Part shown: one piece after another, positions 3,615-64,000 of the stretch
How positions within the stretch are numbered: the first letter of the stretch is position 1
How the letters are laid out: every line of letters starts with the position of its first letter
Source of the DNA: Aphrocallistes beatrix
Taxonomy: Eukaryota; Porifera; Hexactinellida; Sceptrulophora; Aphrocallistidae
Length of the DNA: 64,000 nucleotides
Direction: 5' to 3'
Assembly (NCBI GenBank): GCA_963281255.1
Contig: OY725503.1
Coordinates: 434,001-498,000, forward strand
Program-made: the position numbers and the translations under genes
The notes under the pieces: model-generated
The model's database searches: none
Told to the model about the DNA's origin: nothing
The model's input: the letters and a program-made list of their open reading frames with translations, nothing else

Positions 3615-4255
3615 CACGAAAATAAACTTCCAAAGTGATGTAAATTTGATAAATGCACTTGCCAGGGATTTCAAATATGAAACGGATTCGTTACTTTTTG
3701 TTGCCATCTGTTCTCATGGTTGAGAAGATGACCAAATTTCTGGTATTAACGATGATCCTTCAAGGTTTGAGAAATGCCATGATTTCATCAGTATAAATAA
3801 GATCGGAAACGCATTTTCAAATCACGAGCCCCTATTCAGATAACCGAAAGTGCTTCTAATCCAAACGTGCCTAAGGCCTTGGACGAAAACTTAGAAATTG
3901 AATGCGACAGCGCTTCCCTAATTAATAATTATCCTGCGGTTGGCTAAGTGATTTTTTCTATTTATAGTCAGACCCCAAACTTGTATGGCTTCACCGCCCA
4001 AAATGGCTTAAACAGGAAATGACGCTACAAAACATCTCGCCAAGTGCGGGTTAAGACACCAGGTGGACATCCCACTTCAACCAGCGACACAGTTATTGTA
4101 TTCAACAGCGTGAAGATAGTCAGTTTTGTAAGCAGAACAAAGGGCCAATTTTCTTCGAAATGCTGCATGAGTGCGTAGTTGAACATAGAGCGAGGCACCA
4201 CTTCACTGATATTTTGACTATTAACGCCCGAAACGTCTCCAAAGTTTTTTTAATT
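3615..4255 (+). pseudogene. Caspase remnant (p20 and p10 parts)
   Basis: Plus-strand frames give a recognisable caspase in pieces. NALARDFKYETDSLLFVAICSHG corresponds to the helix, strand and catalytic His motif. It is followed at once by an in-frame TGA where copies 1-3 read on. KVLLIQTCLRPWTKT corresponds to KPKIFIIQACRGE with the Cys kept but the following Arg-Gly lost. NKGPIFFEMLHEC and RHHFTDIL correspond to the p10 segment KGSVFISTLCEV...HHFSDIM. The parts lie in different frames. A dispersed repeat (about 3,950-4,030) is inserted between p20 and p10. The sequence is distant from the three fusion copies, so it comes from another caspase, perhaps one with introns (possible 5' exons at 2,653-2,790 and 2,940-3,030). 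Confidence 0.6.
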
Positions 4256-5439
4256 AGACTAATTCGAATGCGTATTATTCGAATTTAGAATCTGATTAGC
4301 TATATCCCGTACCGTTTAGAAGTAACCATCTTCATGAATTCACCCATTTAGTACAATTTGTATGTGGAATAATGAAATGTTGAAATACTTTTGTCCCCTT
4401 GGTGTAGCTTCCAACGTTTGATATGGGGTTTTAAAAGATGGTAGATTTCGAATATTATATTTTCAGATCAATATGATAAATTTTTGTTTACTTTTGTGTA
4501 CAATCAGGGACGTAGTCACGCGTATATGCATTAACCCGACAAAAGTCATTGAACACTTCATTATTTCTCATATAAATAGTAGTAACTTTGGTATCTACAT
4601 AAAGGAAAACAGCTAAAATACAACAATTTCAAATACAAATACAATTACGTATTTGCCCCAAGCCTGCATGTGGCACGCCTGGTACTAAGAACCGAAAATG
4701 TACTTGTAAATATTTTCACTCATAATTAATTGTGCTCCATTGAAGAATTCTGATATTCAAGTTCGAATTAGAAAAATACAAAATTGCTATCAAAGGACGG
4801 CGAATATTCACACCTAACACCGATTTTGAGGCACACTAATGTGTTGCGGGACACGGTTGAGAACTGTTTTTTGAAGTGTTGGATGCTACTCACTTGTATG
4901 CGCATTTTTGTGTTGTCTGGATGGTAAATGCATTTTTGAAATATTCTTACTTAGCGCTGCACAAAATATAAATTAGAATGTTAAAAGATTGTTAATAGAA
5001 AATTGGTAAATTTCAAAGCGTAACTAACGAATTTTTATATAAGAGATTTGATATAAAGTATTTCTATGCTTTGATTGAAAATTCTGCCAAAAATAGGCCC
5101 ATTTTGATAGCATTTATGGAATATTTCTTGGTTAACATACATTTTCAGTACTGTACGTATGCCACACCTCGATACTCCAAGCAAAACCCAAATAAATTGC
5201 AAATACTTCTGTGTAGTTTTTCACGCAAACACTCCCATCTTGTCAATGTTTAATTCTTACTTCGTGCAGCGCTAAATTATATTTCAACAACATAAGTTAT
5301 TCTCAAATTTGTTCCATAGAACAATTACATCAATGAAATTAATGTTTAATTTCAAGCTCCCCCTAGTTCACAAAAGTTATCTACGGCCCTGTTAAATATT
5401 TCACGCATTCTATACTTCTTCTAGATCCAAATCTTCCAT
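4256..5439. other. Intergenic region upstream of copy 2
   Basis: No gene is supported. Bases 4,953-5,277 are bounded by inverted TTAGCGCTGCAC blocks and look like a MITE of about 320 bp. A related block is at 16,350-16,365 upstream of copy 3. The last 160 bp before the copy 2 ATG (from about 5,280, including CACAAAAGTTATCTAC and TTCTTCTAG) are also found upstream of copy 3 in inverted orientation, so the promoter region was duplicated with the gene. TTCTTCTAG could be a 5' UTR splice acceptor. Confidence 0.5.
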
Positions 5440-8286
5440 ATGAGATCAGAGAGAGGCAATGAATTCGTCTGGGAATACAAGAAGGCTTGTAAAGAAGGTA
5501 GTAGAGAGCTAAAATTTTTTAGACTGGTGATTGTGGGAGCTGAAGAAGCAGGAAAAACTTGTTTGCTGAAGGCGTTGAAAGGTCAACATTTTGATGAGAA
5601 TAAGATTTCGACTAATTTTATTGAAACGACTGGCATTACTATTATAGATCCGAATAGGGATTGGAACGAAAGTATAAACTCTACAGAACAATTACAAATT
5701 GAAGCGAAAATAGCACTAAAAACTGAATCGTTGAAATCACCTGATGCAATAGACCCAATAGACTTCTTCACAGTTTGGGATCTAGCAGAACAATCCTATC
5801 TATTCTGTATGCACTCTCTGTTCCTATCTCCTCGAGCTGTGTATATAGTTACTGTCGACCTCACTAAACGCCTTGATGAACAAGTCGTTGTTAGAGAGGA
5901 AAGGTTAGACAGAATTCAGAAGCGTGAAATAAGTGTAAGTTATCTCGAAATGATTAAATACTGGATTCAGACCATCTATTCTGTAGCAAGGTCCACTGAA
6001 AACGAAGAGTGTAAATCGAGGATTATCATTGTCTTTACCAAATCCGATGAAATAGCTGATCCTCAAGCAATAGCTGATAGTTATTTTAAGGAAATTAGAG
6101 ATTCGCTCTTTTGGAAAAGTAACTGCATGTCAATAGTAGATAAGAAATTCCACGTTGTTAGCGCAAAAGTCAGGGAACAAGAAGAAATGAAGATGTTGAA
6201 AAAAGCCATCAATGAAAACGCAACGTTAACCTGTTTTGATTTCGACCTACCTATCCGTTGGCTAGACCTTGCATTGAAGATTCTTGGGGATTCCAATCCT
6301 GTCATGGGAGAGAGAGAACTTAAGGATATCGCGGATAAAACAGGGTGTGGGATGGATTATGAACAAATTCTGGAGTTTTTCCATTCCATCGGTATGTTCT
6401 TCTTTAGGAAGAACATTTTAGTTAAATCTCTCTCAGACCTGTTAAACGTCATTTTACACATCGTTTTACCCAAATATTGTAAATATTTTCCACAAATAAA
6501 TCAACGCATTGAAAGAGCTAAGAAGGAAGCAATCCTATCAGACGATATTCTAGATGCAATTCTAGGACAAAACAACCTCCTAAGAGTTAAAACTGAGATA
6601 GTGCAGCTGTTAAAGGAGTTTGGGATTATAATTAATAGAAACTCAGAGGAATATTACGTTCCATATTTATTCAATGAAGTTATAACTATAGAACCTAGAG
6701 ACAAAGATCTAATTCTCTACCTCTACTTCCCAGATGGCCTGGTACCGACTTCTTTCTATTTCGCACTCCTATCTAGTATTAGTGATTATGACAAAACTAA
6801 GGAATCGCCAAACCATTTTATTTTTGGTTTCGATTGTGTGGAGTTCCAATGGGAAAATCTTACCTGGATCATCGATCTTTCTGACCACAAACCATATATT
6901 CGCATTATACTCAGAGGAATCGATTTCATGAATTCATGTCCTGACATTCATTCTCTAATCTTCCAACTCGAACAATGGACAGCACATATACAGAGGGAAC
7001 TAATTTTGTCTGGTAAAATTGCCCAAATTGTCCTTGAATGTCCTTGCAAAAAATTCTCGGAAAAACGTAGACCTTGCGTGTATTTTAAAGATTATTTAAC
7101 GCATTCAGTTGACGAAACCCACTTTTACTGTAGATATAAGAAGAAATATATCTCATGGGCAATTTACAATAACAAATTACACCATCCTTTCAAAAGTATT
7201 CCTCGTGAATTAGGGGAAAAGTTTGTAAAATTTAATCGAAATCAGATTTTGAAGATGTTGAAAGTGGATCCGCTCTTAAGAACACTTCACAAAAAAGGCT
7301 TAATTAGCGGAGAAGAGACAAATAGAATTCGTAAATTGAATAAAAGTGAGAAAGCTGCATTTTTAGTCGACAATATTTCAAATAGAAGAAACGATTGGGC
7401 ATATCAGTTCTACAAGATATTGAAGAAAGATGATAATCAGTCTAACGTCAAAGTTAGAGAACTATATGAATCATTCATTTTAAATTTCAAACATTCAGAA
7501 ATTCCTGAAGAAGACATCAATTTCATTCGCTATCCAATTCATAACAATCCGTGTGGTATCTGCCTTATCATTAATATGCAAACATTTAGTGGTGGGATAT
7601 CTGAGAGAGAAGGTTCTAAAATCGATGTTTCTAACTTACGAAATACATTTGATAATTTAAGTTTCAAAACAGTTGTATTCCAAGACTATTCTAAATCAAA
7701 TCTTCACAGAGAATTGAAGACTTTGAGTGCTAATTACCACAAGGATTATGACGTCTTTTTCTGTGTAATAATGTCCCATGGTAATGAGAAAAATGAGATT
7801 TGCACAACAGATAATGAAGTGATCAATATCAATGAAATTCAAGATTACTTCAAACCAAAGAATTGTCCTAGTCTACGTGGAAAACCAAAAATATTCATCA
7901 TACAAGCATGCAGGGGTGAAGCAACGGACCGAGGACAACCTGATCCCCATTCAAAGTCTCTTCCACCCGATGCACCTGTTCCAGCCGCAACATATGGTTC
8001 TCAGGGAAATTCTGATTCTCCACCTCCTGAAACGGACGAAGAGAGAGTTGAAAGCGGAGTTGATTTTTATATCGCACATGCTCCAGCATCTGAACATGAG
8101 GGAAGCATCTTTATCAGTACTTTCTGTACAGTACTACAAGCCGAAAAATTCAACCATCATTTCACTGAAATCATGACAGAAGTAGGTAGGAGAGTCACAA
8201 ACAATGAAGTAAAGAAGGCTAATGAAGTTTTTTTTCAATGTCCAGAAGCCATTGATAGGTTGAGAAAGCGGCTGTTTTTATTTTAA
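5440..8286 (+). CDS. ROC-COR-CARD-caspase fusion protein, copy 2 (948 aa)
   Basis: A single-exon gene joining a ROCO-type GTPase to a caspase. The ROC domain (about residues 25-250) has the P-loop GAEEAGKT (33-40), switch II as DLAEQ (114-118, where the usual Gly is Glu), TKSD (200-203) for guanine specificity and SAK (241-243). COR follows (about 265-600: PIRWLDLALKIL, GCGMDYEQILEFFHSIG, LYFPDGLVPTSFYFALL). Residues about 604-690 fit a CARD (LLRTLHKKGLISGEETNRI, AAFLVDNISNRRNDWAYQF). The caspase p20 has His780 (SHGNEK) and Cys824 (QACRGE). In p10, DFYIAHA runs straight into EHEGSIFIST: the GYxSxR loop kept in copies 1 and 3 is missing, so binding of P1 Asp is doubtful. The likely role is nucleotide-controlled caspase activation by CARD oligomerisation; this is inferred from domains. 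The start ATG is conserved in position upstream of copy 3. Confidence 0.9.
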   Translation: MRSERGNEFVWEYKKACKEGSRELKFFRLVIVGAEEAGKTCLLKALKGQHFDENKISTNFIETTGITIIDPNRDWNESINSTEQLQIEAKIALKTESLKSPDAIDPIDFFTVWDLAEQSYLFCMHSLFLSPRAVYIVTVDLTKRLDEQVVVREERLDRIQKREISVSYLEMIKYWIQTIYSVARSTENEECKSRIIIVFTKSDEIADPQAIADSYFKEIRDSLFWKSNCMSIVDKKFHVVSAKVREQEEMKMLKKAINENATLTCFDFDLPIRWLDLALKILGDSNPVMGERELKDIADKTGCGMDYEQILEFFHSIGMFFFRKNILVKSLSDLLNVILHIVLPKYCKYFPQINQRIERAKKEAILSDDILDAILGQNNLLRVKTEIVQLLKEFGIIINRNSEEYYVPYLFNEVITIEPRDKDLILYLYFPDGLVPTSFYFALLSSISDYDKTKESPNHFIFGFDCVEFQWENLTWIIDLSDHKPYIRIILRGIDFMNSCPDIHSLIFQLEQWTAHIQRELILSGKIAQIVLECPCKKFSEKRRPCVYFKDYLTHSVDETHFYCRYKKKYISWAIYNNKLHHPFKSIPRELGEKFVKFNRNQILKMLKVDPLLRTLHKKGLISGEETNRIRKLNKSEKAAFLVDNISNRRNDWAYQFYKILKKDDNQSNVKVRELYESFILNFKHSEIPEEDINFIRYPIHNNPCGICLIINMQTFSGGISEREGSKIDVSNLRNTFDNLSFKTVVFQDYSKSNLHRELKTLSANYHKDYDVFFCVIMSHGNEKNEICTTDNEVININEIQDYFKPKNCPSLRGKPKIFIIQACRGEATDRGQPDPHSKSLPPDAPVPAATYGSQGNSDSPPPETDEERVESGVDFYIAHAPASEHEGSIFISTFCTVLQAEKFNHHFTEIMTEVGRRVTNNEVKKANEVFFQCPEAIDRLRKRLFLF

Positions 8287-13016: not shown

Positions 13017-16000
13017 TTAAAATAGGAACAGCTGCTTCCTCAACCTATCAGTACTTTCTGAACATTGGAGATGCTCGTTCATATCTTTCATCAAGACTCT
13101 TCTACGAACTTCTATCATAATATCACTGAAATGACGGTTGAACTTTGCGGCTCGTAGTACTGTGCAGAAAGTACTGATAAAGATGCTCCCCTTGTCCTTG
13201 GTTCGAAAGGATATATATCCTTGTACAGTAGCATGTGCAATATAATAATCAACTTGGGTTGCAACTTTCTCCATGGCTGTTTTAGAAGGTGTAAAATCAA
13301 ATTTATTTAAATCTAGAGTTGCGTCCTGAGAAATAGTTGTTGCAGATAAAACAAGTGTTTTGGGTGAAAAAGACTTTACAGCATGGGGATCAGGTTGTCC
13401 TTGGTCCTTTGCTTGACCCCTGCATGCTTGTATGATAAATATTTTTGGTTTGCTACATAGATCAGGACAATTATTTGGTGTGAAGTAATCTTGAATTTCA
13501 TTGACATTGATCGCTTTTTCATCTTTTGTGTAAATCTCATTTTTATCATTACCGTGGGACATTATTATACAGAAAAATACATCATAATCCTTGTGATCCA
13601 TAGCACTATAATTCTTCAATTCTTTGCGAAGATTTGATTCAGATAAATCTATGAATGAAATGTTTTGAAACTCATATTATCAAATGTTTTTTCTAATTTT
13701 GAAACATCAAATTCAGAACCTTTTCTCTCAGGCATCTTACCACCAAATGTTCGCATATTAATGATAAGGCAGATACCACATGGATTGTTACGAATTGGGT
13801 ACCGAATGAAACCGATCTCTTCTACAGGAATTTCTGAATGTTTGAATTCCGAAATGAACTTTTCATATAGTTTTCTAACTTCGACGTTTGACTGATCCTC
13901 ATTATTCTTCAATATCTTGTAGAACTGATATGCCCAATTTCTTTTATTTGAAATATTGTTGACTAAAAGTTCAACTTCCTTAGTTCCACACAATTGACAA
14001 ATTTCATCTGTCTCTTTGCCGTCAATTAATCCTTTTTTGTGAAGTGGTCTTAAGAGTGGCTTCACATGCAACATCTCCCAAATCTGATCCCGATTATCTT
14101 TTACAAACTTTTCCCCTAATTCACAGGGAATTTTTTTGAAAGGATGGTGTAATTTGTTATTGTAAATTGCCCATGGGATAAATTTATTCTTATTTTTGCA
14201 GTAAAAGTGGGTTTCTTCAACTGAATGCATTAAATAATTTTTTAAATATACACAAGGTCTACGTTTTTCCGAGAATTGTTTGCAAGGACATTCAAGGACA
14301 ATTTGGGCAATTTTACCAGACAGTATCAGTTCCCTCTGTATATGTGCTGTCCATTGTTCGAGTTGGAAGATTAGAGAATGAATGTCTGTACATGAATTCA
14401 TGAAATCGATTCCTCTAACTATAATGCGGATATATGGTTTGTGGTCAGGAAGAAGATCAATGATCCAGGTAAGATTTTGCCATTGGAACTCCACACAATT
14501 GAAACCAAGTTTTGGAGAGTTCTTTGTTTTGTCACACTTGCTGATACAGAGAGATAAGAGTGCGAAATAGAAAGAAGTCGGTGCTAGGCCATCTGGGAAG
14601 TAGAGGTAGAGAACTAGATCACTGTCTTTAGGGTTTATTGGTATAACTTTAGTGAATAAATATGGAATGTTATAATATTTCTGAAAGTTCCATTTCTCTG
14701 AGTTTTTACTCAGAGAAATGAAACTTTCAGAAATATTACATTCCATACAAGTTATAATACCAAACTCCTTTAACAACTGCACTATATCAACTTTATTTAG
14801 AGAGGATCTGTTTATCATCAGAATTACATCTAGAATACGGTCTGAAAGAATTTCTTCCTCTTCACCTCTTTTTATTTCATCAAATTTTCCTGGAGATATT
14901 TCATAATAGTCATACTTATGGGGTAAAACGATGTATGAAATGACGTTTAACAGGCTTTTGAGAGATTTAACTAAAATGTTTTTCCTAAAGAAGAACACAC
15001 CAATGGAATGGAAAAACTCCAGAATTTGTGCATAATCCATTCCACACCCTGTTTCATCCGCGATCTCTTTAATTGTATTCGAATCTTGTTTCGAGTTCGT
15101 GATCCCCAATGCAAATTTTAGCCATCGGATAGGTATCTTGGAATCAAAACGGGTTATTAACTTCGCGTTTTCATAAATATTTTCCCTCAACATCTTAAAT
15201 TTTTCTCGTTCCCTGTCTTTTGCGCTTACGACGTGGAATTTCTTATCTATTATTGACATACAGTTACTTTTCCAAAAGAGAGAGTCCCTAATTTCCTTAA
15301 AATACCTAGCAGCTGTTGCTTGAGGATCAGCTATTTCATCGGATTTGGTAAAGACAATGATGATCCTCGATTTACACTCTTCATTTTCCGTGGACATTGC
15401 TACAGAATAGATGGTCTGAATCCAGAGATTAATCATTTCAAGATAACTTAGTTTTTCATCACGCTTCTCAATTCTAACTCTCCATTTATTTCTGACAATT
15501 TGTTCATTAAGGTGTTTAGTGAGGTCGACAGCAACTATATACACAGCTCGAGGAGACAGGAACAGAGATTGCATACAGAATAGATAGGATTGTCCTGCTA
15601 GATCCCAAACTGTGAAAAAGTTCATTGGGTCTATCATGTGCTCGTTTGTCCAATGTTTCTGAATTTTTCTCAACACTCGCAAATCTTCACAATCTTTATT
15701 GGAATAAAAATTTTGTTTTTGATCTGAATGGGTATTTGGACGACTATTTGAATCATCGCTAATGAATTTCTTGTTCACAGATAAATTTTTAAGAATTTTT
15801 CCATCATCCTCTTTTGAGAAATCCAACTTAGATTCATCAGACGATTTTGATGATTCTTTGAAGTTTTTTGCGATTATTTTTGCAATTATATCATCTCTAG
15901 TAGTTTGTAAATGTCCAATGAAGTCTTCACTTTTGCCCCATTCTTTGTTCGGATCAATAATACTTATGTCAGTTTTTTCAATAAAATTAGTTGAAATTTC

Positions 16001-16135
16001 TCTCTCGTCAAAACGTTCACCTTTCAACGCCTTCAGCAAACACGATTTTCCTACTCCTTCTGGTCCCACAATCATCAGTCTAAAATAATTTAGTTCTATA
16101 CTACCGTCAGCTTTAAAATTTTCATAAGCCTTCAT
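13017..16135 (-). pseudogene. ROC-COR-CARD-caspase fusion gene, copy 3, with one frameshift
   Basis: An inverted copy of the fusion gene. The first 828 codons (from ATG at 16,135) give ROC with P-loop GPEGVGKS (24-31), intact switch II DLAGQ, TKSD and SAK, then COR, CARD (KKGLIDGKETDEICQL, LLVNNISNKRNWAYQFYKIL) and the start of p20. A shift near 13,660-13,675 ends this frame at FKTFHS. The other frame then continues ISFIDLSESNLRKELK, SHGND, QACRGQ and the p10 part with pocket loop GYISFR to the end LFLF. Both halves are otherwise clean, so the shift is recent or an assembly error. ROC carries an insertion of about 80 charged residues missing from copy 2. The ATG used by copy 2 is present (about 16,178) but runs into a stop after eight codons. 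Confidence 0.8.
14661..14747. repeat. Near-perfect palindrome inside copy 3 coding sequence
   Basis: Arms 14,661-14,703 and 14,708-14,747 around a TTTT loop. It encodes the residues between IITCM and KYYNIPYLF (SESFISLSKNSEKWNF), where copy 2 has only NRNSEEYYVPYLF. The extra residues are thus explained by an inverted duplication of about 40 bp that stayed in frame. Confidence 0.85.
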
Positions 16136-16993
16136 GTATTCCTGGACTAATTAATCGCCCCTCTCTCTGATCTCATATGGAAGCTCAAGTAGGCCTAGAA
16201 GAACTATAGAATGTGTGAAATATTTATCATGGGGTGTAGATAACTTTTGTGAATGGGGGGTGACTTGAAATCAAACATAAATTTCAAATAAGACTATTCC
16301 TACTTATCGCAACTATAATTTGGAACAATGTAATTTTGAACTATTCAAGCGCTGCACAAAGTAATATTACACATTGACAAACAATTATTTGCAATTTATT
16401 TGGTTTTACTTGGTGAATCAGCTTTGCATATGCCGAGTACGGGAACTATTGCATTTAGGAATCAAAAAATATTTAATTTAATTATTATCAAAACAAGCGC
16501 GCTTCGCTTGCTTTCATTGAACGGCTGGCACACAAAGTGTCCGCCGAAGGCGTCTAGGCTCTTTGGATTGGTGATTCTTTGGATACGCAGTGTACGTGTA
16601 TACAAGTACATACTATATCTACGATTTATTGAAGAAACTGCCAAGCGTAGAAAGCTGATTTTTCGCATGTGAGAGTCTTTTGGTTATGGCTCCACTAAGT
16701 TGACAGACGAAAATGCCAACTCATCATGAAATTATGACGTCATTGTCACATTTTTTTTATAATTAGAAATTTCAGTTTTTCGACTATAACTCAGCCATTT
16801 TAAGTGATAGAAGGCTAAAATTTTAATAGAATGTGTATATGACCATTATTCACATATGCTACAATTATTATCAAAAAATGACAAAATGTCCGTCAGTTTG
16901 CAAATTACCATCTTGACAACCCAAAAATGCGCGTACACCAAGTGAGTATCGTTCAGCACGGTTGAAAGACATTTTGATACTATTTTCCCAATG
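16136..16993. other. Spacer with dispersed repeats
   Basis: Bases 16,136-16,330 are the duplicated upstream flank of the fusion caspase genes. A family S hairpin repeat lies at 16,494-16,552. Bases 16,627-16,880 are a 250 bp dispersed repeat (GTGAGAGTCTTTTGG...TATAACTCAGCCATTTTA) whose second copy is at 40,450-40,700. In both places a family S unit lies nearby. Confidence 0.55.
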
Positions 16994-17575
16994 TTACGAT
17001 TGCTTACCCAATTTTCCGAATTCTTTACTGAATGTCTTTGTTAATTCAAATTCTGTCATGTGTTTTAACTCTTCCCTATACGCTTCGAGCTTCTGGGATA
17101 CTTCGTCTAAATTGATCTCCCACATTATTTTGCGCAGACTTGTTAAATCTTTTTGAATCGAATTATTTTCTAAAAGCAATTTCATCATAATTTCAAATCC
17201 GACTTCTCCCTCATATTTTCCTAAAGAAAAAAACATATGAATTTCCTGTAATTTACTAATTGATATTTCTCTCTTTAGCATTTCGATTAAACTTCTGATA
17301 CTTTGAGTGTGGAAAGCATTAGCACATAGCCATGGGATATGTACTACTGTGTGTATTAAATACGGATTAATTGATTTCAGGGCTCGGTAGAAATGGGATG
17401 AGTCGAAGTTTTCCCATTTTTGCATTGCTCTAAGAAAGTCGATTGATTTATATTCATCACATCCATAAATGTAATCTGGTACTTGTAGTTCATTGCATAA
17501 TATTTTTATTTTTTCTGGCGGCAGTCCGATCGCAAGTATTTCCAAGTTTGTCTGTTCTTCGAACCTTTGTTCCCT
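16994..17575 (-). CDS. Death-domain-like protein, 3' exon
   Basis: A 194-codon open stretch that begins right after a good acceptor (TTTTTAATTGTTTAG) and ends in a stop, so it is taken as the last exon of a spliced gene whose earlier exons I could not find. Residues about 5-85 (NLEILAIGLPPEKIKILCNE, DEYKSIDFLRAMQKW, FYRALKSINPYLI) have the pattern of a death-fold domain: six short helices with the conserved Trp and the final aL..i...L. The rest is helical and charged. It lies 860 bp from caspase copy 3 and could be an adaptor partner. The family assignment rests on pattern only and could also be another all-helical domain. Confidence 0.45.
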   Translation of the reverse strand, partial: REQRFEEQTNLEILAIGLPPEKIKILCNELQVPDYIYGCDEYKSIDFLRAMQKWENFDSSHFYRALKSINPYLIHTVVHIPWLCANAFHTQSIRSLIEMLKREISISKLQEIHMFFSLGKYEGEVGFEIMMKLLLENNSIQKDLTSLRKIMWEINLDEVSQKLEAYREELKHMTEFELTKTFSKEFGKLGKQS

Positions 17576-17764
17576 AAACAATTAAAAAATAAGATTAAAA
17601 CTGTATACATTTATATTGATCTTATAATTTTTTAATCAAACAAAAATTTTATCCCTTTTCATTAAAGGGTTTGTATTGGAACTCAATTTTAAATTTGGAC
17701 TAGAATTAAGTGTTAAAAAGTGTAAAACTGAAATAATGCAGCTAGACAAGGTCCGATCAAATTG

Positions 17765-53972: not shown

Positions 53973-54844
53973 TTTCTCAATAAACTAAGCTTGATTTCAT
54001 ACTTCACACGCATATATAGCTGTCCGCTCAATGTTCAACTGAAAACCCTTAAAAGTTCGTGATTTCATGTTTATATGGATTAGCGCTACTGTGTTTAAGC
54101 CAAACTTCTTTTTATTTAGCCGAATTTCCTTTCTAAAAGTTTGGAATCAAGGTCAAATTCGTGAATTCGAAGGAAGCTATCGCGATTTTTCTCTAATCTG
54201 AAGATTCTTGATATTCTGAATCACTCTAATAGTTTCAAGCTGTACTATTTAAACGTGACTTTATATAGAAGTTCACTTCATTATTTATCACAGACATCTT
54301 GCAGACATTCATTCGTAGTGACACATGTTGTTAAAATGATAGTATACTATCAGTGTCGAACATAATATCGAAATCCAACCAAAAGTGCGAAAATGTGAGA
54401 GAACTTTTATAATTCATACATGTTGTGTCCTAGATAAACGTAGTCAGATGCCGCTTTACATACAGCTTCAGTTTTAAACGAATGTTTTCTGTTCTAAATT
54501 CTGATACAAACAAAGATCAGTTGACTCTGCTTAATAGAAGCTAATACGAAATATTTTCGGTTAATAGGGTTCTCCGCTTAATCGGGCCAAAATGTCTTCT
54601 GACCGATGTGACCCTATTAAGCGGAGTCGACTGTATTTAGATTTACCAGTAAGAGATACAGTCAACCGCTTAATCGGGACACTTTTGGCAGGACCGGAAT
54701 AGCTCTCACACATAGAAGCTAATACAAAATATTTTCGGTTAATAGGGTTCTCCGCTTAGTCAGGGCAAAATGTCCTCTGACCGATGTGACCCTATTAAGC
54801 GGAGTCGACTGTATTTAAAATAAAGTTTTAACATTTGCTTAGAA
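53973..54844. other. Divergent promoter region with two family A MITEs
   Basis: This spacer separates the RNF207 start (-) from the first IF2 gene (+). MITE A7 (54,516-54,635) is shortened at the left and A8 (54,657-54,813) is complete; they are 21 bp apart in the same orientation. A8 ends 31 bp before the ATG at 54,845. Nothing else supported. Confidence 0.65.
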
Positions 54845-56521
54845 ATGCTGCAAAGATTAAAATTATTAGAAATCCCACCTCTACTCAGCACAAACACACT
54901 TAGAAGATTCATATTTTATTCTCAAATGCAGTTTATTGAAAATAATAACTCCACCCCCAATCCTGAAAATCTCAAAATTCGCCCTCCAATTGTGTCCGTT
55001 ATGGGTCACGTGGATCATGGGAAAACGACACTGTTGGACTCGCTACGTGACACTAACGTGGCAGAAAGTGAGCCAGGACTGATTACACAACACGTCTCTT
55101 CTTTTGTGGTCAATTTCAAGGGTCGTGACGTCACGTTTATTGATACACCCGGTCATGCGGCGTTTTCTGGTATCAGAGGAATAGGCGCGAAAATTAATGA
55201 CATCACTGTATTGGTGGTTGACACGAATGAAGGCATCAAACCGCAGACACAAGAAGTGATTGATCTGATTCTCGGATATCAAATCCCAACTGTGGTGGCA
55301 CTCAACAAAATTGATCGTAAAACTTCAGACATCTCAGCCACTGAAGAGCAGTTAGTTGAGGCAGGAATCGAATTGGAAAGTTTCTATGGTTCAACCATTT
55401 CAGTGCCAATTTCTGGGTTGAAGAAATTAAACCTAGACAAGTTGGTGGAGGCGATTTTAAGAGAAGCTGAGAAACTGGAACTGCATTCTCTAGAAGGATA
55501 CAGTCTGAATGGAAAAGTATTGGATGTCTACACCAAATCAAGTATCGGAACCGTTGCAACTGTCATAGTTAAAAGAGGACTCTTAAAAACCGGCTCCGTT
55601 ATTCGGACGAAAAAGGCATGGTGTAGGGTAAGGCATTTCGAACCAGCTGAAGGGGTGGACAAATCTAAATTCGTTGACGGAGGGAAACCGGGATATCCGT
55701 TTATGGTGACAGGGTGGAGGGGCAAACCGGATCCAGATGATAATTTCTTCGAAGTTGAGAACATGAAAACTGCTAAAATCATCTTAGCTAGGAGAAATAA
55801 ACAAGTTTCAATGGATGAAAAATCAATTCATGTTGACAAAAAAGTTGCCCAGATATTCGGACAAGATCCCAGGACACTGTACATGATTATAAAAACAGAT
55901 ACAGCTGGATCACTCAACGCACTCGTCACTCTGTTAAAAAATGCGAAACCAAAAGGTGTGAAAATAGAGATAGTCACATGGGAGGTCGGACCTGTCTTGG
56001 AGTCGGATATGATATATGCTGATAATATTGGCGCCCATGTAATCGCATTCAATCTCGACCTTGATGAAAAAATAAAATTCCTAGAAAAAAACTTGAAAGT
56101 CCCTGTGTTTTGCAATAATGTGATATTCCGTATTATTGAGTATGTTAAGCGGGAATTAGAAGAGATTCTAGAACCGAGAATTGAGGAACGAATTGTAGGT
56201 GAGGCTGAAATTTTAAAACTTTTCAAACTTCCGGAAAAATTACAAGCGTCTGGATGCATCGTGAAATCTGGGACGATCGAAAAATCCGGGCTCTTTCGAG
56301 TTCGCCGAGGAAATGAAGTGATTTTCGAAGGGCACCCAGCTACTTTAAGGCACAAAAAGTCGCACATTACGAAAGTAGTGAAAGGAAGCGAGTTTGGGAT
56401 AACTTTTCCGAATTTCAATGATTGCTGGGAAGAAGATAGAGTCGTTTGCTATCAGAACTTTCCTGTTAAAGAAAGATTGGTGTGGAACCTTGATGATGGC
56501 TATGAAACAGAAACTAATTAG
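54845..56521 (+). CDS. IF2-type translation GTPase, copy 1 (mitochondrial IF2 paralogue)
   Basis: A single-exon gene of 558 residues in the IF2/IF5B GTPase family. G domain: GHVDHGKT (54-61), TQHV, DTPGHAAFSG, VALNKID, then SVPISGLKKLNL. It is followed by the domain II beta barrel (GTVATVIVKRGLLKTGSVIR), domain III (LYMIIKTDTAGSLNALVTLL) and the C-terminal C1/C2 parts (RVRRGNEVIFEGHPATLRHK). The N-terminus has Arg and no acids up to residue 30, fitting mitochondrial import. The IF2-specific N-terminal helix-turn-helix present in copy 2 is missing. Its G domain DNA is almost identical to copy 2 while the rest differs. It is either a second mitochondrial IF2 or a specialised paralogue; the function of this copy is not known. 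Confidence 0.85.
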   Translation: MLQRLKLLEIPPLLSTNTLRRFIFYSQMQFIENNNSTPNPENLKIRPPIVSVMGHVDHGKTTLLDSLRDTNVAESEPGLITQHVSSFVVNFKGRDVTFIDTPGHAAFSGIRGIGAKINDITVLVVDTNEGIKPQTQEVIDLILGYQIPTVVALNKIDRKTSDISATEEQLVEAGIELESFYGSTISVPISGLKKLNLDKLVEAILREAEKLELHSLEGYSLNGKVLDVYTKSSIGTVATVIVKRGLLKTGSVIRTKKAWCRVRHFEPAEGVDKSKFVDGGKPGYPFMVTGWRGKPDPDDNFFEVENMKTAKIILARRNKQVSMDEKSIHVDKKVAQIFGQDPRTLYMIIKTDTAGSLNALVTLLKNAKPKGVKIEIVTWEVGPVLESDMIYADNIGAHVIAFNLDLDEKIKFLEKNLKVPVFCNNVIFRIIEYVKRELEEILEPRIEERIVGEAEILKLFKLPEKLQASGCIVKSGTIEKSGLFRVRRGNEVIFEGHPATLRHKKSHITKVVKGSEFGITFPNFNDCWEEDRVVCYQNFPVKERLVWNLDDGYETETN

Positions 56522-57066
56522 AATTGTTAATTGTAACGAATTATTAAAAATATACTCAATTCTATTTATATAATCGGGATAATTAATTCTATTTTGTACC
56601 TACGTCATGAGCTATGATAGAATTTAACTTCGGGGTTGAGTTTAGCCAAATAATGGACTCCAAATTTGTACGTTTTTTGCCAACCCTGTACTTACTGCCT
56701 TTGTTTTTCCTAAAAATGTAGTAAGTAGCAAGTACAGTGGAATTCGCTTATTAGCGAGTTTTGCTCATAAAATGGTTGCTAATACGCGAAGTTGCAAATA
56801 AGGGAACAGAATTAACACAAAATCTACACCTGGGACCTGAAGATTGGTTGCTAATAGAGCAATATTGCTAATAAGCAAATTCCACTGCAAATCCATGAGC
56901 CAAGTTTGTAGTATCTGCAGTAGAAGATTTCAATTCTTTAAATCCTTAGTTTTATAATGTTAATTTAAGAAGTTGTCTCCTACCTAGGATATGTCCTTAC
57001 TTTATATATTTTCTGAATTCTCACCACTTTGCCTAGCTTTCTCACTTATTAGTTTATACGTCGCTT
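56522..57066. other. Spacer between IF2 copies with a family B MITE
   Basis: MITE B5 at 56,733-56,890 is in inverted orientation, with TA+CAGTGGAATTCGC at the left and a degraded right end (TTCCACTGCA). The rest is AT-rich and likely holds the promoter of the second IF2 gene. Confidence 0.65.
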
Positions 57067-58881
57067 ATGCACCGAAGTTTAGCTCAAATTATTCAAAAAA
57101 ATAAAAATATTTACACAAGAACGATAAAAAAATCTGCTCTTAAAGAAGTAGAAAATTTGTATTCAAAACCGAATTTGAGAGTAGAAAAGTTTGCAAGAAA
57201 GATTAATGTCCCGGTTAGAAAAGTTCTCCACATCCTTTCAAGATTCGAAATCCGTGAGTACAACCGCATGACAAGACTATTCCACCCAGAATTAAGACTT
57301 GTCACAGACCATTTAGGCATTTTACACCAAACCACTCCATTCACCACATGCCCTCGCCCCCCAATTGTGTCCGTTATGGGTCACGTGGATCATGGGAAAA
57401 CGACACTATTGGACTCGCTACGTGACACTAACGTGGCAGAAAGTGAGCCCGGACTGATCACGCAACACGTCTCTTCTTTTGTGGTCAATTTCAAGGGCCG
57501 TGACGTCACGTTTATTGATACACCCGGTCATGCGGCGTTTTCAGGTATTCGAGGCCGAGGTGCGAAAATTAATGACGTCACAGTTTTAGTTGTTGATTGC
57601 TGCGAAGGCGTTCGTTCTCAGACGAGAGAAGTTATTGATCTAATTAAGAAGTATGAAATTCCTTGTGTGGTCGCCCTCAATAAGATCGACAGAGCGAACG
57701 CGGATGTGTCTAGGACAGAGCAAGAGCTGTTTGAGAATGGAGTTGAGTTGGTAAAGTTTGATGGGAACATTCCTTCTGTGGAGATATCAGCACTGAAACG
57801 AATTAATCTTGATAACCTAGTGAGAGAAATTATTTCGGAAGCGGATAACCTCAATTTAGAAGCAGACGTAGATACAAACGCATTCGGATTCGTGTTGGAG
57901 ACGAAGAAGTGTCCAACTTTCGGGGGTCTGTCCACCATCTTACCTCTCCAGGGGAAAATCCGTATACGAACGATCATAAACTCGGGCTTAAATTTCTGCT
58001 CAGTCCGTAATATATTTCTACCGTCTGGGGGCCAAGCGGAAGAGATCTCCCCGGGGTACCCTTGTACCATTTCCGGGTGGAAACGGGGCCTGCCTAAAGC
58101 TGGACTCCGATTTATAAATACCCCGGGTTTCAAAATAGCTGCTCGAATGTCCAAAAAACCTCCACTTCAAATTCCGAAACGTTTAAAAGAGAAAAAGTTG
58201 AAAACGAAAGTTTTGAGAGATAACAACGAAGTGACGGAGATAAAAGGCGATAAGGGTACACTGTGTCTGATCTTAAAATCGGACACAGAAGGTTCAAAAG
58301 AAGCACTCGAAAATATCTTAACTTCCACAACCCCAGAAAATTTGAGAATACAACTCTTCTCCTCCAAAGTTGGAGACATCACTGTCACAGATATCAGGTG
58401 TGCCAAGGCACTGAATGCACATGTCCTGGGTTATAATGTTAAACTCCACTTTGGAGCAGAAAAAGAATTGAAACAGACAAAGATCCCAATTTTCACACAT
58501 AACATCGTATATAGGATTATCGATTACGTACGCGAGGAGCTAACGAAAATGTTAGAACCAACTCTTTCTGAGAAACATGTTGGATTCGCAGAGATTATTT
58601 CCGGGCCATCACAACTTGATTTCACACCTCCGTATAAGTGTAAGCTGTTAGAAGGAAGGATTGATAGACAGCAGCGTTTTCGGATTATTTCGACGGACGG
58701 AGTAGTGAGGTATGATGGCGAACTTCGGGAAATAGAATCTGGAGGAGATTCTATCAAACCCGGCGGCGAATTCGAGATACGATTTGAATTCTACGGCGAA
58801 TACGATTTGACAGATCGCGTTGAGTGTTACGAAATAATCGAGAGTAGCACTCAATTAGTTTGGAGTACTAACACAGACTAA
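57067..58881 (+). CDS. MTIF2: Mitochondrial translation initiation factor IF-2, copy 2
   Basis: A single-exon gene of 604 residues. mtIF2 places fMet-tRNA on the mitochondrial ribosome. The N-terminus (MHRSLAQIIQKNKNIYTRTI) looks like a targeting sequence. Residues about 38-70 (VEKFARKINVPVRKVLHILS) form the IF2 N-terminal helix-turn-helix motif. G domain: GHVDHGKT (105-112), TQHV, DTPGHAAFSGIRGRGA, VALNKID. Domain II is diverged. Domain III reads LCLILKSDTEGSKEALENIL. The C-terminal domain ends CKLLEGRIDRQQRFRIISTD, GEFEIRFEFYGEYD and YEIIE. Of the two copies this one keeps the usual domain set and is the better candidate for the true mtIF2, though its barrel region is less typical than that of copy 1. 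Confidence 0.85.
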   Translation: MHRSLAQIIQKNKNIYTRTIKKSALKEVENLYSKPNLRVEKFARKINVPVRKVLHILSRFEIREYNRMTRLFHPELRLVTDHLGILHQTTPFTTCPRPPIVSVMGHVDHGKTTLLDSLRDTNVAESEPGLITQHVSSFVVNFKGRDVTFIDTPGHAAFSGIRGRGAKINDVTVLVVDCCEGVRSQTREVIDLIKKYEIPCVVALNKIDRANADVSRTEQELFENGVELVKFDGNIPSVEISALKRINLDNLVREIISEADNLNLEADVDTNAFGFVLETKKCPTFGGLSTILPLQGKIRIRTIINSGLNFCSVRNIFLPSGGQAEEISPGYPCTISGWKRGLPKAGLRFINTPGFKIAARMSKKPPLQIPKRLKEKKLKTKVLRDNNEVTEIKGDKGTLCLILKSDTEGSKEALENILTSTTPENLRIQLFSSKVGDITVTDIRCAKALNAHVLGYNVKLHFGAEKELKQTKIPIFTHNIVYRIIDYVREELTKMLEPTLSEKHVGFAEIISGPSQLDFTPPYKCKLLEGRIDRQQRFRIISTDGVVRYDGELREIESGGDSIKPGGEFEIRFEFYGEYDLTDRVECYEIIESSTQLVWSTNTD

Positions 58882-59593: not shown

Positions 59594-62500
59594 TTAGAGT
59601 CCCCTCCTGAAACACGTTTGGCAGCAGTCCATACGTATGTAGTAGGGATAGGCGTTGCAGTTCCCTAAGTAGTCGATTAAAGCGTTACAAAATTCTTCGC
59701 TTATCGAATCACGGCACTGGCTGCAAGGCGGTACATCACATCTTATTTCAGTAGGCGGTTTAAACAGCTCGTTACATTCCACATCACTCACTTGGTTGCT
59801 AGTGATCGTTGAAACGCATTGAACAACCCTACGCCTGAATGAGGGGCCGCAATTCGCTGAACATCGTCCGAACGGAAATGCATTCCATCTGAACGGACGG
59901 TTGCACCGTATACCGAGGGGCCCACATCTATCCATGCTGTCCGGCTTTGGTCGCAATCTGCTGCAATCCGTCTCGTCATCACTTACCACGTTATTACAAA
60001 AGCAGTCCACACTTCTTGTCCGCCTACCTCGATGGCAAGTTGTATCTGAACAGTCACTCCACTGTCCTATAACCCATTCACAGCCCTCGCATGGTACTGG
60101 GGCTGGTAAACCCAATCGGTCGCAGACACTAGTCGCGACAGAGGTAGCAGCGGCTCCATTCCTACTTTCCTGGCAAATCGTCCTCCCAGCGCTCTCATCA
60201 CAAATATATTCATAGTCGAAATGCTCAATGTCGGTAGATGCAGCATCCGCTTGACCACACACGCTGGTAACCTGACACGTATAACGACCAACTTCGCTCA
60301 CTCCCACATTCGACACAGTTAGCGTGCTCATCCCATTAGGAATGTTATCCACAATACTGTATCTTCCCTGTTGGTTACTAATGGTACTTGCTTGGTAAAG
60401 CCATTCGAATGTGAAGTCTGGGATGTTGCTTCTTTCCAGGGAACAAGTCAGTTGGAAGCTGTTCTGGTTGTATAAACAGATCTGTGAGCCTATTTGTGCG
60501 GAGTTGGTTGTGCTTCCTTGATTACATTGGGCTGAACCTTCAACTATTGCTGGCGAGGGGAAAGTTATCCTCGACTCTGGGATATTACTGACTCCGAAAA
60601 TGTTTTCCGTTCTCGCTGTTATGACTGTCTGACAGGTTATCTCGAATTCTCCCTCTTCGAAGATGAAACAGTTCTCGTTAGGCGCTGGTTGTTGGACGGA
60701 ATTGAGTACGACCAGGTCTTCTCGGAACTCGAAGTCTGCGGGGATAGGATCTGGAAAACCGCCGATCCAACATGCGGTAATCCTCAGACGCCGGTCAGTC
60801 GGGATGATAAAATCCTGTCCGATCTCTCCCTCTCCATCCGTTTCAGTCCCGGTTAGAACACGGATTATCGGAGGACCTCCCACTCTGGTAGTTACGTTCG
60901 TACTTTCTCCAAACTGGTTCGTCGCCTGGACGAGGTAGTCTCCGTACTGGGAGCGGTCCAAGTTCGAAATCTGGAGCGTCCCAATGTTCCCGTTCACTAG
61001 CTGACGAATGTTACTCGAAGTTGGAAGCGGTCCGAAGGGCCCATTCGTTGTACTCCTGTAGTACCAGGTGAAAGTCCTCCCGGGCTGTCCTTCCAGATCA
61101 GTGGCTGCCAAACTGACAGTGCCTCCGTCGGAAATACTGATCTGAGCCCCCACGTTTACTGTCCGAGACTGCCCGGATCCTATTGTAGGCGGGAAAGTAA
61201 GTTCTCCGTCGATTCTTGGCCCTCGACCGACAACAGATAAAGCCGCGTCGTTTCCCGCGCTATTGGATGCCTCTGCCCTGTAAGTTCCGAAGGTGTTACT
61301 CCCGACCGGAAACGACAAAGTACTGTCCGTGAATCCTTGCGCGTTCAGTTGGCTCGTGATTGTATAAGTTCCATCGTTCACAACTGGTATAAATGACGTC
61401 CCCCCTGGTGGGATTCTAAACCATCTAATGGCGCTAGCTTCTCTTCCCGCTATATCATTAGCAGTGATGGTGACAACATCTCCAACAGTGGATTCGAACA
61501 ATTCCCCTATCCTTCCGCTGCCGTCTGTATTAATGGTATTTTCATCACCAGCATCTATAGTCGGCGGTAGAATGGTCGTACTTTGGGTGACAGTAGAAGT
61601 TGCGGAGGTCGATCCGAATACGTTGCTGGTTGTTGCAGTGTATGTACCAAAGTCGCTCGTTCTTGCGGACTGAATGGTTAGTGTGCTGACTCCATCTCCT
61701 AATGCCGTTATGTATCCAGGGGTTGAGGGTGTTATTATAGAACCATCTGAACCTCTCCATGTGATGGAGCCCTGGGGATACCCACTAGCTATCCTAGCTT
61801 CAATTGTCACACTGGCACCTTCTGAAGCTTCGAAGGATTCTCCGATCTGACCGCTTCCAGACGCGAATTGCAAACTACTTCCGACGAGATTGGCACATTC
61901 CTCATTACCAAACTGGTTACTAATCTCAGCAAAGTAGTAGCCTAGAGCTGCGTTTTCCAAGTTGAAAAAGTTTATAGTCCCCACTTCGTTCGCTGGAGTG
62001 TTTGTGCTCGTGTATCGACTGTCAGGGCTAGATCTAGCACCGTTTTCCGTGCGGGAATAACTCCAGGAAACTGTGCCGTGTGGAACCCCGTTTATATCCC
62101 TCGCTCTAATCGAAAATTGATTCGCATTCACCGTGTCAAAGTACCCAGCACTATCCACCACAGCTCCGTTATTAACTGCGGTCACTGCGTTTCCACTTCT
62201 ACAGGTGCTCGCTCCTCCAACCAAAGATGTAGCTGCATCATCTGGCGTTAAACCATTTGTTGCGGTTGCTCTATATGTTCCCCTATCTCCCGATTGAACC
62301 CCGTTGATGGTTAGCGTTGAACGGCTTTGTCCGGACGTAATAACGAATCGACCTCCACTAACGACATTCGTTACTCCTCCATTATCCACGCGTTGCCATT
62401 GAAAATTGCTCGAAGGGAATCCTTCCGTATCCACAGCCACGATATTGATGGTCTGGTCAATGGCGCCGTTAAATGAAGACCCAATATCACCACTCCCCAC

Positions 62501-63754
62501 AACCGCAACCCCACTCCCTTCCCGAATACTGGGACTCCTCCCAACTAGTGAAGAGGCCGGCACGTGGCTACCATGAACATTCGTCGCAGTCGCTCTATAA
62601 TAGCCAAGACGGGCATCTTGTATGTTGGAAATAGTCAATGTACTTTCAGCTCCACTTCCGGCGTTGGCTGAACCTGAAATGGTTATGTCGAGGTCATTTT
62701 GGCTTACTGCTGTGTATGGGCCTAACGGATTACGTGAAAACGACCAAGCTATGTCGGCGCTTGGGTTAGAAATCTGATCTTCCGCGAGGATGCTAACTGT
62801 ATCTCCGAACGTGATGGCCCGATCTGCTCCCACCCTAAACGAGGCACTATCCGATTGTCCACTTCCTTCGGTGATAAATGGTGCAACGCCCTGGGTTATG
62901 AACGCCGATGCGCTATCTGTTCCGTGTTCGTTCGTGGCTTCTGCGGTGTATTCTCCTAAATGAACGCCGGTGATTCCCTGTATGTTTAAAATGCTAGTTC
63001 CATCCTGAGGAGTCTCGATTGTTACCCCAGCTAGGGAGCTCGGTAGCCCCACTCGACTTGAGGAACCTTCAGCTGTGAAATACCATTGAATGCCACCTCT
63101 AGGCTCACCAATCAAATCTGTAGCATTGATGATGATGGTGTTGGTGCTGTCTATCCTAGTTTGGAATGTTGTCCCCAGTAGGCCGTATAGCGTGTTGCTA
63201 CTCTGTTCTGTTACTTGGTTTAGTTCTGCTAAGTTGGGTGGAGTCCCTCCGGAAAACAAAACTGTGGAGAACGCACTGTCGTTTCGCTCCAACTCTGGGA
63301 GAGATATCGTATATATGTACTGTCCACTACAAGTAGTTGTCCCCTCGGTAATTACAAGAAAATCTCCGGGCTGTACTTTTGTAATTTGGCTACAAATTAG
63401 AGGTGAAATGCCATCATCAAGGACAAAGGAAAATGGAGGTTCTAAGCCGAGTGGGAAACTTGAGAAAATAATATCGACAGGGGTGCTTGATCCCTCTGGT
63501 ATAAACTGAAACCTTTCTTGTCGTTCACCCAGGCCGTTTAAGGCGATTTCATCCGGCTGAAACTGTAGTGTTATACTACTCCCTGTTGGCCCTCTCCAAT
63601 TCCCACCAAAATGAAATTGTTGCGAACTAACTTCCGTGTCAACAAGGTTTTCGGTCCCCCTTATAATGAAGTTGTCGGTTACAGGTCCAACTGCACTGAT
63701 TTGTAAAGCAAACAAAGCTGTTAAGGCAATAAGGCCTTTGATCAAATGTTGCAT
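59594..63754 (-). CDS. Secreted Ig-repeat, TSP1 and PLAC domain matrix protein (papilin/ADAMTSL/hemicentin-like)
   Basis: A 1,386-residue, single-exon protein. Residues 1-22 (HLIKGLIALTALFALQISA) form a signal peptide. After a unique N-terminal region (about 25-190), seven or eight Ig-like I-set repeats of about 100 residues run to about 1,080. Each has the core Trp (IQWYF, IAWSF, FQWQR, VSWSY, ITWRG, IRWFR, FTWYY) and a Tyr motif YxAxxxN (YTAEATN, YRATATN, YTATTSN, YLVQATN), with Ala instead of the disulfide Cys. The last Ig repeat has Cys (LTCSLERS, YTCQVTS). Two TSP1-like repeats follow (CEWVIGQWSDCSDTTCHRGR; WNAFPFGRCSANCGPSFRRR), then a PLAC domain (CRDSISEEFCNAL...MDCCQTC). No membrane anchor. 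It is likely an extracellular matrix component. The architecture has no exact match in my memory. Confidence 0.85.
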   Translation of the reverse strand: MQHLIKGLIALTALFALQISAVGPVTDNFIIRGTENLVDTEVSSQQFHFGGNWRGPTGSSITLQFQPDEIALNGLGERQERFQFIPEGSSTPVDIIFSSFPLGLEPPFSFVLDDGISPLICSQITKVQPGDFLVITEGTTTCSGQYIYTISLPELERNDSAFSTVLFSGGTPPNLAELNQVTEQSSNTLYGLLGTTFQTRIDSTNTIIINATDLIGEPRGGIQWYFTAEGSSSRVGLPSSLAGVTIETPQDGTSILNIQGITGVHLGEYTAEATNEHGTDSASAFITQGVAPFITEGSGQSDSASFRVGADRAITFGDTVSILAEDQISNPSADIAWSFSRNPLGPYTAVSQNDLDITISGSANAGSGAESTLTISNIQDARLGYYRATATNVHGSHVPASSLVGRSPSIREGSGVAVVGSGDIGSSFNGAIDQTINIVAVDTEGFPSSNFQWQRVDNGGVTNVVSGGRFVITSGQSRSTLTINGVQSGDRGTYRATATNGLTPDDAATSLVGGASTCRSGNAVTAVNNGAVVDSAGYFDTVNANQFSIRARDINGVPHGTVSWSYSRTENGARSSPDSRYTSTNTPANEVGTINFFNLENAALGYYFAEISNQFGNEECANLVGSSLQFASGSGQIGESFEASEGASVTIEARIASGYPQGSITWRGSDGSIITPSTPGYITALGDGVSTLTIQSARTSDFGTYTATTSNVFGSTSATSTVTQSTTILPPTIDAGDENTINTDGSGRIGELFESTVGDVVTITANDIAGREASAIRWFRIPPGGTSFIPVVNDGTYTITSQLNAQGFTDSTLSFPVGSNTFGTYRAEASNSAGNDAALSVVGRGPRIDGELTFPPTIGSGQSRTVNVGAQISISDGGTVSLAATDLEGQPGRTFTWYYRSTTNGPFGPLPTSSNIRQLVNGNIGTLQISNLDRSQYGDYLVQATNQFGESTNVTTRVGGPPIIRVLTGTETDGEGEIGQDFIIPTDRRLRITACWIGGFPDPIPADFEFREDLVVLNSVQQPAPNENCFIFEEGEFEITCQTVITARTENIFGVSNIPESRITFPSPAIVEGSAQCNQGSTTNSAQIGSQICLYNQNSFQLTCSLERSNIPDFTFEWLYQASTISNQQGRYSIVDNIPNGMSTLTVSNVGVSEVGRYTCQVTSVCGQADAASTDIEHFDYEYICDESAGRTICQESRNGAAATSVATSVCDRLGLPAPVPCEGCEWVIGQWSDCSDTTCHRGRRTRSVDCFCNNVVSDDETDCSRLRPKPDSMDRCGPLGIRCNRPFRWNAFPFGRCSANCGPSFRRRVVQCVSTITSNQVSDVECNELFKPPTEIRCDVPPCSQCRDSISEEFCNALIDYLGNCNAYPYYIRMDCCQTCFRRGL

Positions 63755-64000
63755 TTCTTACCGATTCAAGTATCCAAATTATTTTCAGTATAGTATATTC
63801 TTTGGAGTAACTCCACAATATACAGTGATACATATTTATAATTTATTCAGAAACTGTTCGTACTATGCTCAACTCAAGTCTATTAACATTGTTAATAATG
63901 TTAGTTGAAATTACATAGGCCTGATTGCACTTCGCTGATTAGTTTCTGGTTTCTGCACCCGCAGCCTACATGAAACTGTTTGGAAGTATCGAGTATATGG
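63755..64000. promoter_or_regulatory. Upstream region of the Ig/TSP1 gene
   Basis: Sequence before the start codon of the gene at 63,754 (-). AT-rich with no motif that I can name; it must include the 5' UTR and possibly the promoter. Confidence 0.3.

Follow-up and report, generated by a model that had tools for sequence, protein, structure and literature searches.

A ROC-COR-CARD-caspase gene family in the hexactinellid sponge Aphrocallistes beatrix and a seemingly damaged member

Can a ROCO-type GTPase switch and a caspase be carried by one animal protein, and does the gene that raises this question encode a working one? The gene corresponds to an open reading frame (ORF) of 948 codons, at 5440..8286 (+), in a 64,000-nucleotide stretch of the hexactinellid sponge Aphrocallistes beatrix (assembly GCA_963281255.1, contig OY725503.1, positions 434,001 to 498,000), hereafter the window. 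A first-pass annotation of this DNA had read the frame as a ROC-COR-CARD-caspase chain, that is, as a GTPase-controlled caspase. Comparison with the rest of the genome (28 contigs, 100.5 Mb), to which the analysis of the family was confined, leads to a reading that we regard as somewhat probable: the window gene would be one of about ten ROC-COR-CARD-caspase genes whose intact members would act as sensor-proteases, and would itself be an atypical or decaying copy. The family is real and unusual, and the window copy is a poor exemplar of it, seemingly damaged in both the switch and the protease.

Domains and motifs of the window frame

The frame has exactly the limits and the length claimed for it, and its motifs all lie at the places given by the first-pass annotation. 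Pfam recognizes three domains in the protein, all above the curated cut-offs: Roc (7.5e-10), CARD (1.3e-7; 32.0 bits for a cut-off of 23.9), and Peptidase_C14 (2.2e-45). The ROC GTPase domain covers residues 28-262 (5521..6225; this gene and all its features are on the + strand) and also matches LRRK2 chains through the family profile. Motifs G1, G3, G4, and G5 could be placed in it, with the P-loop GAEEAGKT at residues 33-40 (5536..5559), switch II DLAEQ at residues 114-118 (5779..5793), in which Glu117 stands instead of a Gly, TKSD (G4) at residues 200-203 (6037..6048), and SAK (G5) at residues 241-243 (6160..6168). The CARD, at residues 594-667 (7219..7440), reaches 3.4e-9 in Pfam when taken as an isolated piece. 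It is followed by the caspase domain, at residues 706-944 (7555..8271), which matches caspase-3 chains among solved structures (best E 1.4e-24). This domain has the His-Cys dyad of C14 caspases (SHG, QACRG), with the catalytic His780 at 7777..7779 and the catalytic Cys824, within QACRG, at 7909..7911. Neither NACHT nor leucine-rich repeats (LRR) were matched by Pfam in the window protein. The claim that ROC, COR, CARD, and caspase share one frame is thus confirmed by Pfam for three of the domains; COR has no such match and is supported via relatives.

The region between ROC and CARD (about residues 263-590, 6226..7209) is likely a COR domain because of its position and of its collinearity with other ROCO proteins, though it is unproven when taken alone. 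A family profile composed of ROC minus the P-loop, plus COR, was compared by hhalign with five other ROCO frames encoded in the genome; the match (98.7%, E 2.7e-16) extends collinearly over 310 columns, from the DxxG motif as far as the IPTSFYFALLS stretch. The same ROCO-frame profile compared with the CARD gave E 0.18 and a probability of 0.3%. Among solved structures, the ROC+COR profile found LRRK2 (best 6.3e-7) and bacterial Roco chains, matched through ROC only. Eight family members, the window gene included and locus L046 excluded, were scanned for COR-A and CARD. COR-A matched one of the eight COR regions, that of L035, below threshold (21.3 bits, cut-off 35.3).

CARD was found by Pfam in six of these eight members, including the window protein (E up to 5), which agrees with the death-fold region proposed earlier at residues 604-690, a point checked by sequence only. 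The family CARD profile matched, among solved structures, a designed protein (4.2e-4), the CARD of cIAP1 (0.0015), and the CARD of MDA5 (0.0029). Five of the nine CARD matches of the genome lie within the ROC-caspase family. A non-family frame, in L061, was considered as a possible CARD partner: it has a CARD, and neither NACHT nor NB-ARC was matched in the 817 of its 1199 codons that were scanned. The remaining non-family CARD loci are distributed as one on contig C10 and two on contig C8.

The ROC-caspase family in the genome

At least ten loci show the ROC-to-caspase arrangement. This count is a lower bound, obtained by a protein search with the window ORF that scored 48 of 63 candidates, together with Pfam scans. 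Caspase domains gave 58 matches in the genome at E up to 0.001; the best 30 of the 58 were taken as caspase loci, and wider regions were fetched for 20. Eight loci have the whole arrangement in a single frame, namely the window gene, L032, L033, L034, L031, L035, L037, and L038, and they are spread over five contigs. Two others, L046 and a copy at 13.0-16.1 kb of the window, are each broken within the caspase. A degraded eleventh locus was found on contig C7 (about 4,236,672-4,237,831), and its three matches contain 1, 7, and 7 stops. On contig C17, four of the ten family loci are clustered within 31 kb. The window itself begins with the caspase 3' end of the next family member, L032 (1..1004, +; whole frame of 1013 codons). 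The 13-16 kb copy has ROC-COR-CARD and the first part of its caspase at 13649..16150 (-), and the remaining caspase, with His and Cys motifs present, is in a different overlapping frame at 13017..13676 (-); this copy is therefore frameshifted.

The domain order proposed for the window frame is thus right and recurs in the family. A chance ORF or an artefact was ruled out by the collinear relatives, by the same order at eight loci, and by the simulations of stop codons described below. Likewise, it is hardly credible that two separate genes, or the two sides of an assembly error, came to share a frame by chance, given a same order found in one frame at eight loci on five contigs, with the other rows of the alignment sharing 32-73% identity with the window protein. 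In a tree built from 28 caspases of the genome and caspase-3 (L013 and L016, which contain stops, were dropped from the 30 fetched loci), a branch with a support of 99/98, found in 98% of 200 bootstrap trees, separates the eight single-frame ROC caspases from the other sequences. The ROC caspases stand beside caspase-3 with a support of 94/83, and that grouping is open. What the sequences show of the family is its domains (COR less firmly), their order, their shared frame, a single caspase group, and a ratio of nonsynonymous to synonymous substitution rates (dN/dS) below 1 in ROC-COR.

The members differ in front of ROC. L031 (1800-7016, +) is a single frame of 1739 codons encoding NACHT, weak LRR, ROC, a COR-like region, CARD, and caspase. 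Both NACHT (6.3e-10) and LRR_4 (8.8e-4, under the cut-off) lie ahead of ROC, and the motifs searched for are intact; L031 is a better exemplar of the family than the window gene. L035 (1283-7201, +; 1973 codons) has two caspase-like stretches ahead of ROC-COR-caspase, one above the cut-off (4.4e-5) and one below it (6.4e-4). Its arrangement resembles a tandem pseudocaspase. In the corresponding parts of L038, no Pfam match was found. L037 (2121-6209, +) contains a long array of IQSDP-type repeats between the P-loop and switch II, which is much shorter in its close relative L046. As for a prokaryotic source of ROC-COR, a pattern scan of prokaryote genomes matched 103 stretches, none of which was confirmed, and distant relatives could escape such a scan.

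Other caspase architectures occur in the genome. L043, L047, and L048 encode a caspase followed by NHL repeats in a single frame (563-586 codons), and L044 (2237-4927, +) an immunoglobulin domain and a caspase in a single frame of 897 codons. A dense cluster of 21 caspase matches lies at about 338-389 kb of C17; the family member closest to it, L033, is about 30 kb away. Elsewhere in the window, two adjacent frames (54824-56521 and 57037-58881, +) each encode an EF-Tu-type GTPase and IF-2 domains, and a GC-rich frame of 1387 codons (59594-63757, -) encodes several I-set immunoglobulin and thrombospondin type 1 domains. The CARD, caspase, NACHT, and immunoglobulin domains are consistent with an animal genome.

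The fate of the window copy

Several differences set the window copy apart from its relatives. The Gly of the DxxG motif senses the gamma phosphate of the nucleotide, and R64, Q161, and R207 of caspase-3 form the Asp-binding S1 pocket, with R207 binding the P1 Asp. In switch II, the window copy has Glu117 where all eight other aligned sequences, and also the 13-16 kb copy, have Gly. Moreover, a gap of 7 residues (21 bases) in the caspase, at 8095..8100, deletes the S1 Arg equivalent to R207. This Arg is kept in 27/27 of the other caspases scored (28 of the 30 fetched loci, window included, out of the 58 caspase matches). The equivalents of R64 and Q161 are retained, as are His and Cys, and the S1 pocket is left incomplete. 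None of the other copies compared lacks either the switch II Gly or the S1 Arg. These two changes and a shifted 5' end had been overlooked by the first-pass annotation, and its description of this copy as a working GTPase-controlled caspase is not supported, given the lost Gly and Arg. Both losses rather suggest an atypical or decaying copy, which would be unlikely to cleave normal Asp substrates. Could this copy nevertheless be fully active with an altered specificity, Arg64 and the His-Cys pair remaining and another residue replacing the lost Arg? The R64, Q161, His, and Cys equivalents are indeed present, but conservation of the Arg in every other scored caspase of the genome and in caspase-3 makes this quite unlikely.

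The shift of the 5' end (region 5405..5460, +) is located just past a conserved acceptor-like site, TTCTTCTAG, which ends at 5424. Compared with three neighbouring copies, the AG run that follows is 2 bases short in the window copy (after 5447). The open frame of L032 meets a stop in the window copy, and the ATG at 5440, in the shifted frame, opens the ROC frame; because of this shift, it need not be the native start. In the corresponding region, a separate TAA occurs in the 13-16 kb copy. An upstream exon is probable for the family, because the first Met is so close to the P-loop, or even past it: it precedes the first P-loop Gly by three residues in L032, L037, and L046, and follows that Gly in L034. 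A candidate 5' exon is located upstream of the 13-16 kb member (16994..17581, -) and has a counterpart ahead of L033, to which it is about 50% identical over 115 residues, so that it is found beside two of the four cluster copies. It appears helical by eye, and no Pfam family matched it. Ahead of the window gene, the L033 upstream exon is recognizable only as faint remnants at the protein level (E 0.006 and 1.8), and DNA matches L033 only at 4876-5126 (75% over 258 bases). Dispersed repeats, with many copies in the genome (40 of 2732 candidates scored), occupy positions 3900-4520 of the window, between two tandem family members.

These features raise the possibility of a recent pseudogene: the window copy would have lost its upstream part or had it interrupted, its 5' frame would have shifted, and both switch and protease would have been damaged, with only relatives such as L031 and L033 working. 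This alternative, like the other two that concern the fate of the copy (altered specificity, above, and a decoy, below), overlaps with the reading preferred here. It accounts for the two-base loss by the conserved acceptor-like site, for the switch II and S1 changes, and for the weakness of the L033-like traces upstream, with the repeats nearby; frame breaks in the 13.0-16.1 kb copy and in L046 point the same way. The in-frame ATG at 5440 and the conservation of the frame argue otherwise. The branch of the window copy carries 228 substitutions over 2427 compared sites, and its 948 codons are free of stops. When a 1042-codon frame, that of L033, was evolved neutrally to this divergence, it accumulated a mean of 10.5 stops, and none of 5000 runs remained stop-free; the window ORF was therefore probably translated and under selection through most of its history. 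In addition, comparison of the window gene, L032, and L033 gives a dN/dS of 0.56-0.68 for ROC+COR, with 95% intervals below 1, and of 0.83-1.13 for CARD+caspase, with intervals that include 1. In pairs with the 13-16 kb copy, it is 0.56-0.68 for ROC and 1.26-1.58 for CARD. Finally, dN/dS on the window branch is similar to that of L032. A pseudogene is thus a serious contender, though one that we hold short of probable.

A number of observations weigh against the preferred reading, i.e. a family of sensor-proteases of which the window gene is an atypical or decaying copy. First, Pfam matches nothing in the window protein over the 330 residues that separate ROC from CARD. Compared alone with the other ROCO frames, the COR part gave E 0.004 and a probability of 8.5%, and the COR profile retrieved no COR from among solved structures, its six matches all being calcium-channel beta subunits with E of at least 0.16. 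COR also shows a dN/dS of 0.79-0.83 in pairs with the 13-16 kb copy. Second, the branch of the window copy is not outstanding in its caspase dN/dS (1.48), because it resembles that of L032 (1.35), a member with intact motifs; the L033 branch has 0.65. Values near 1 may reflect relaxed constraint instead of an arms race, the latter having been set aside as inseparable from the former. Third, the whole frame and the retained His and Cys fit function as well as recent decay.

One further explanation would reconcile a kept frame with a damaged protease. As c-FLIP dampens caspase-8, the window copy might work as a pseudoprotease or decoy, dampening intact members by binding them via CARD or ROC-COR. 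The frame is kept, the loss within the caspase sits in the substrate pocket, a single-frame relative (L032) directly adjoins the window copy, and L035 has weak caspase-like stretches too. We find this unlikely, as the decoy would have retained both His and Cys and as the 5' shift suggests decay.

A single-chain sensor-protease and known systems

If the preferred reading is right, intact members would be intracellular single-chain sensor-proteases devoted to defence or cell death. Sensing would be performed by the variable front region, exemplified by NACHT and weak LRR in L031 and by the caspase-like stretches in L035. The nucleotide state of ROC-COR would set the balance between monomer and dimer, and dimerization, together with CARD contacts, would join two caspase domains and activate them by proximity. 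The first-pass annotation had proposed GTP-dependent dimerization. According to the accessible text of PMC6337361, CtRoco goes the other way, being a dimer when nucleotide-free and mainly a monomer with GTP. By analogy, GTP would separate the caspases, and hydrolysis or loss of the nucleotide would activate them, which is the reverse of the earlier proposal.

How does such an architecture compare with described systems? The CARD caspases of the apoptosome and inflammasome also carry a CARD directly ahead of the caspase and are activated by induced proximity; their switch (Apaf-1 or an NLR) is a separate protein, whereas that of the sponge family is in the same chain. Among animal ROCO proteins, MASL1 combines the ROCO core with a kinase or death domain. 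The family shares its ROC-COR core with LRRK1/2, DAPK1, and MASL1, and DAPK1 couples ROC-COR to a death-fold domain; however, LRRK and DAPK1 carry a kinase or death domain, and the word caspase is absent from the accessible text of the review consulted (PMC6337361). The portion available of PMC6321704 reports CARD-caspase genes in Trichoplax, and that of PMC9334734 reports Aplysia proteins that contain TIR, ROC, and COR.

Other parallels lie outside animals. Bacterial conflict proteins with an LRR-AP-GTPase(ROC)-COR organization include caspase among at least 24 C-terminal domains, and they resemble the sponge family by their ROC-COR followed by a C-terminal effector, by their several paralogs per genome, and by their proposed role in defence (PMC8195603, accessible portion). 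By contrast, they have N-terminal leucine-rich repeats, and no CARD is mentioned in that portion of the paper, whereas a CARD stands in between in the sponge family, and its caspase tentatively groups beside caspase-3 (94/83). Brown algal/SAR ROCOs are likewise ROC-COR proteins with a C-terminal peptidase and are proposed as candidate immune receptors, but this peptidase is IPR009003, not a caspase; in the text available, the word caspase is absent and no CARD is reported (PMC11378527).

In another sponge, Dysidea avara, a figure legend on NLRs lists COR and CASc, and their order does not appear in the accessible text (PMC12909245). These NLRs may include a relative of L031; they are centred on NACHT-LRR, whereas the window frame has no NACHT. 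The claim that no protein with this order had been described is thus too broad in kind, given the bacterial ROC-COR-caspase proteins (PMC8195603) and the Dysidea avara legend (PMC12909245). The exact ROC-COR-CARD-caspase order in animals was not found in searches of the open-access literature, supplements and figures being outside those searches.

A broader view, tentative and rather doubtful, takes in the genomic setting. NB-ARC had no match in the genome at E 0.001 (one model, six frames, 14/14 candidates scored). With 94 of 176 candidates scored, NACHT gave at least 94 matches, and many of them fall in frames about 1100-1190 codons long. The lineage might run single-chain death or defence receptors, made of a NACHT-LRR or other sensor, a ROCO switch, a CARD, and an executioner-like caspase, as a small family in a genome without detectable NB-ARC. 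Such a receptor would amount to an apoptosome or inflammasome complete in itself and controlled by GTP, not ATP, and some copies might serve as pseudoprotease regulators.

If the intact members work, the GTPase cycle of a ROCO protein would directly control a caspase within one molecule. This would offer a clean biochemical system for studying how ROCO proteins, i.e. the family of LRRK2, relay their nucleotide state to an effector. It would also reveal an animal death pathway that operates without a separate adaptor, in parallel to the ROC-COR-caspase conflict systems of bacteria.

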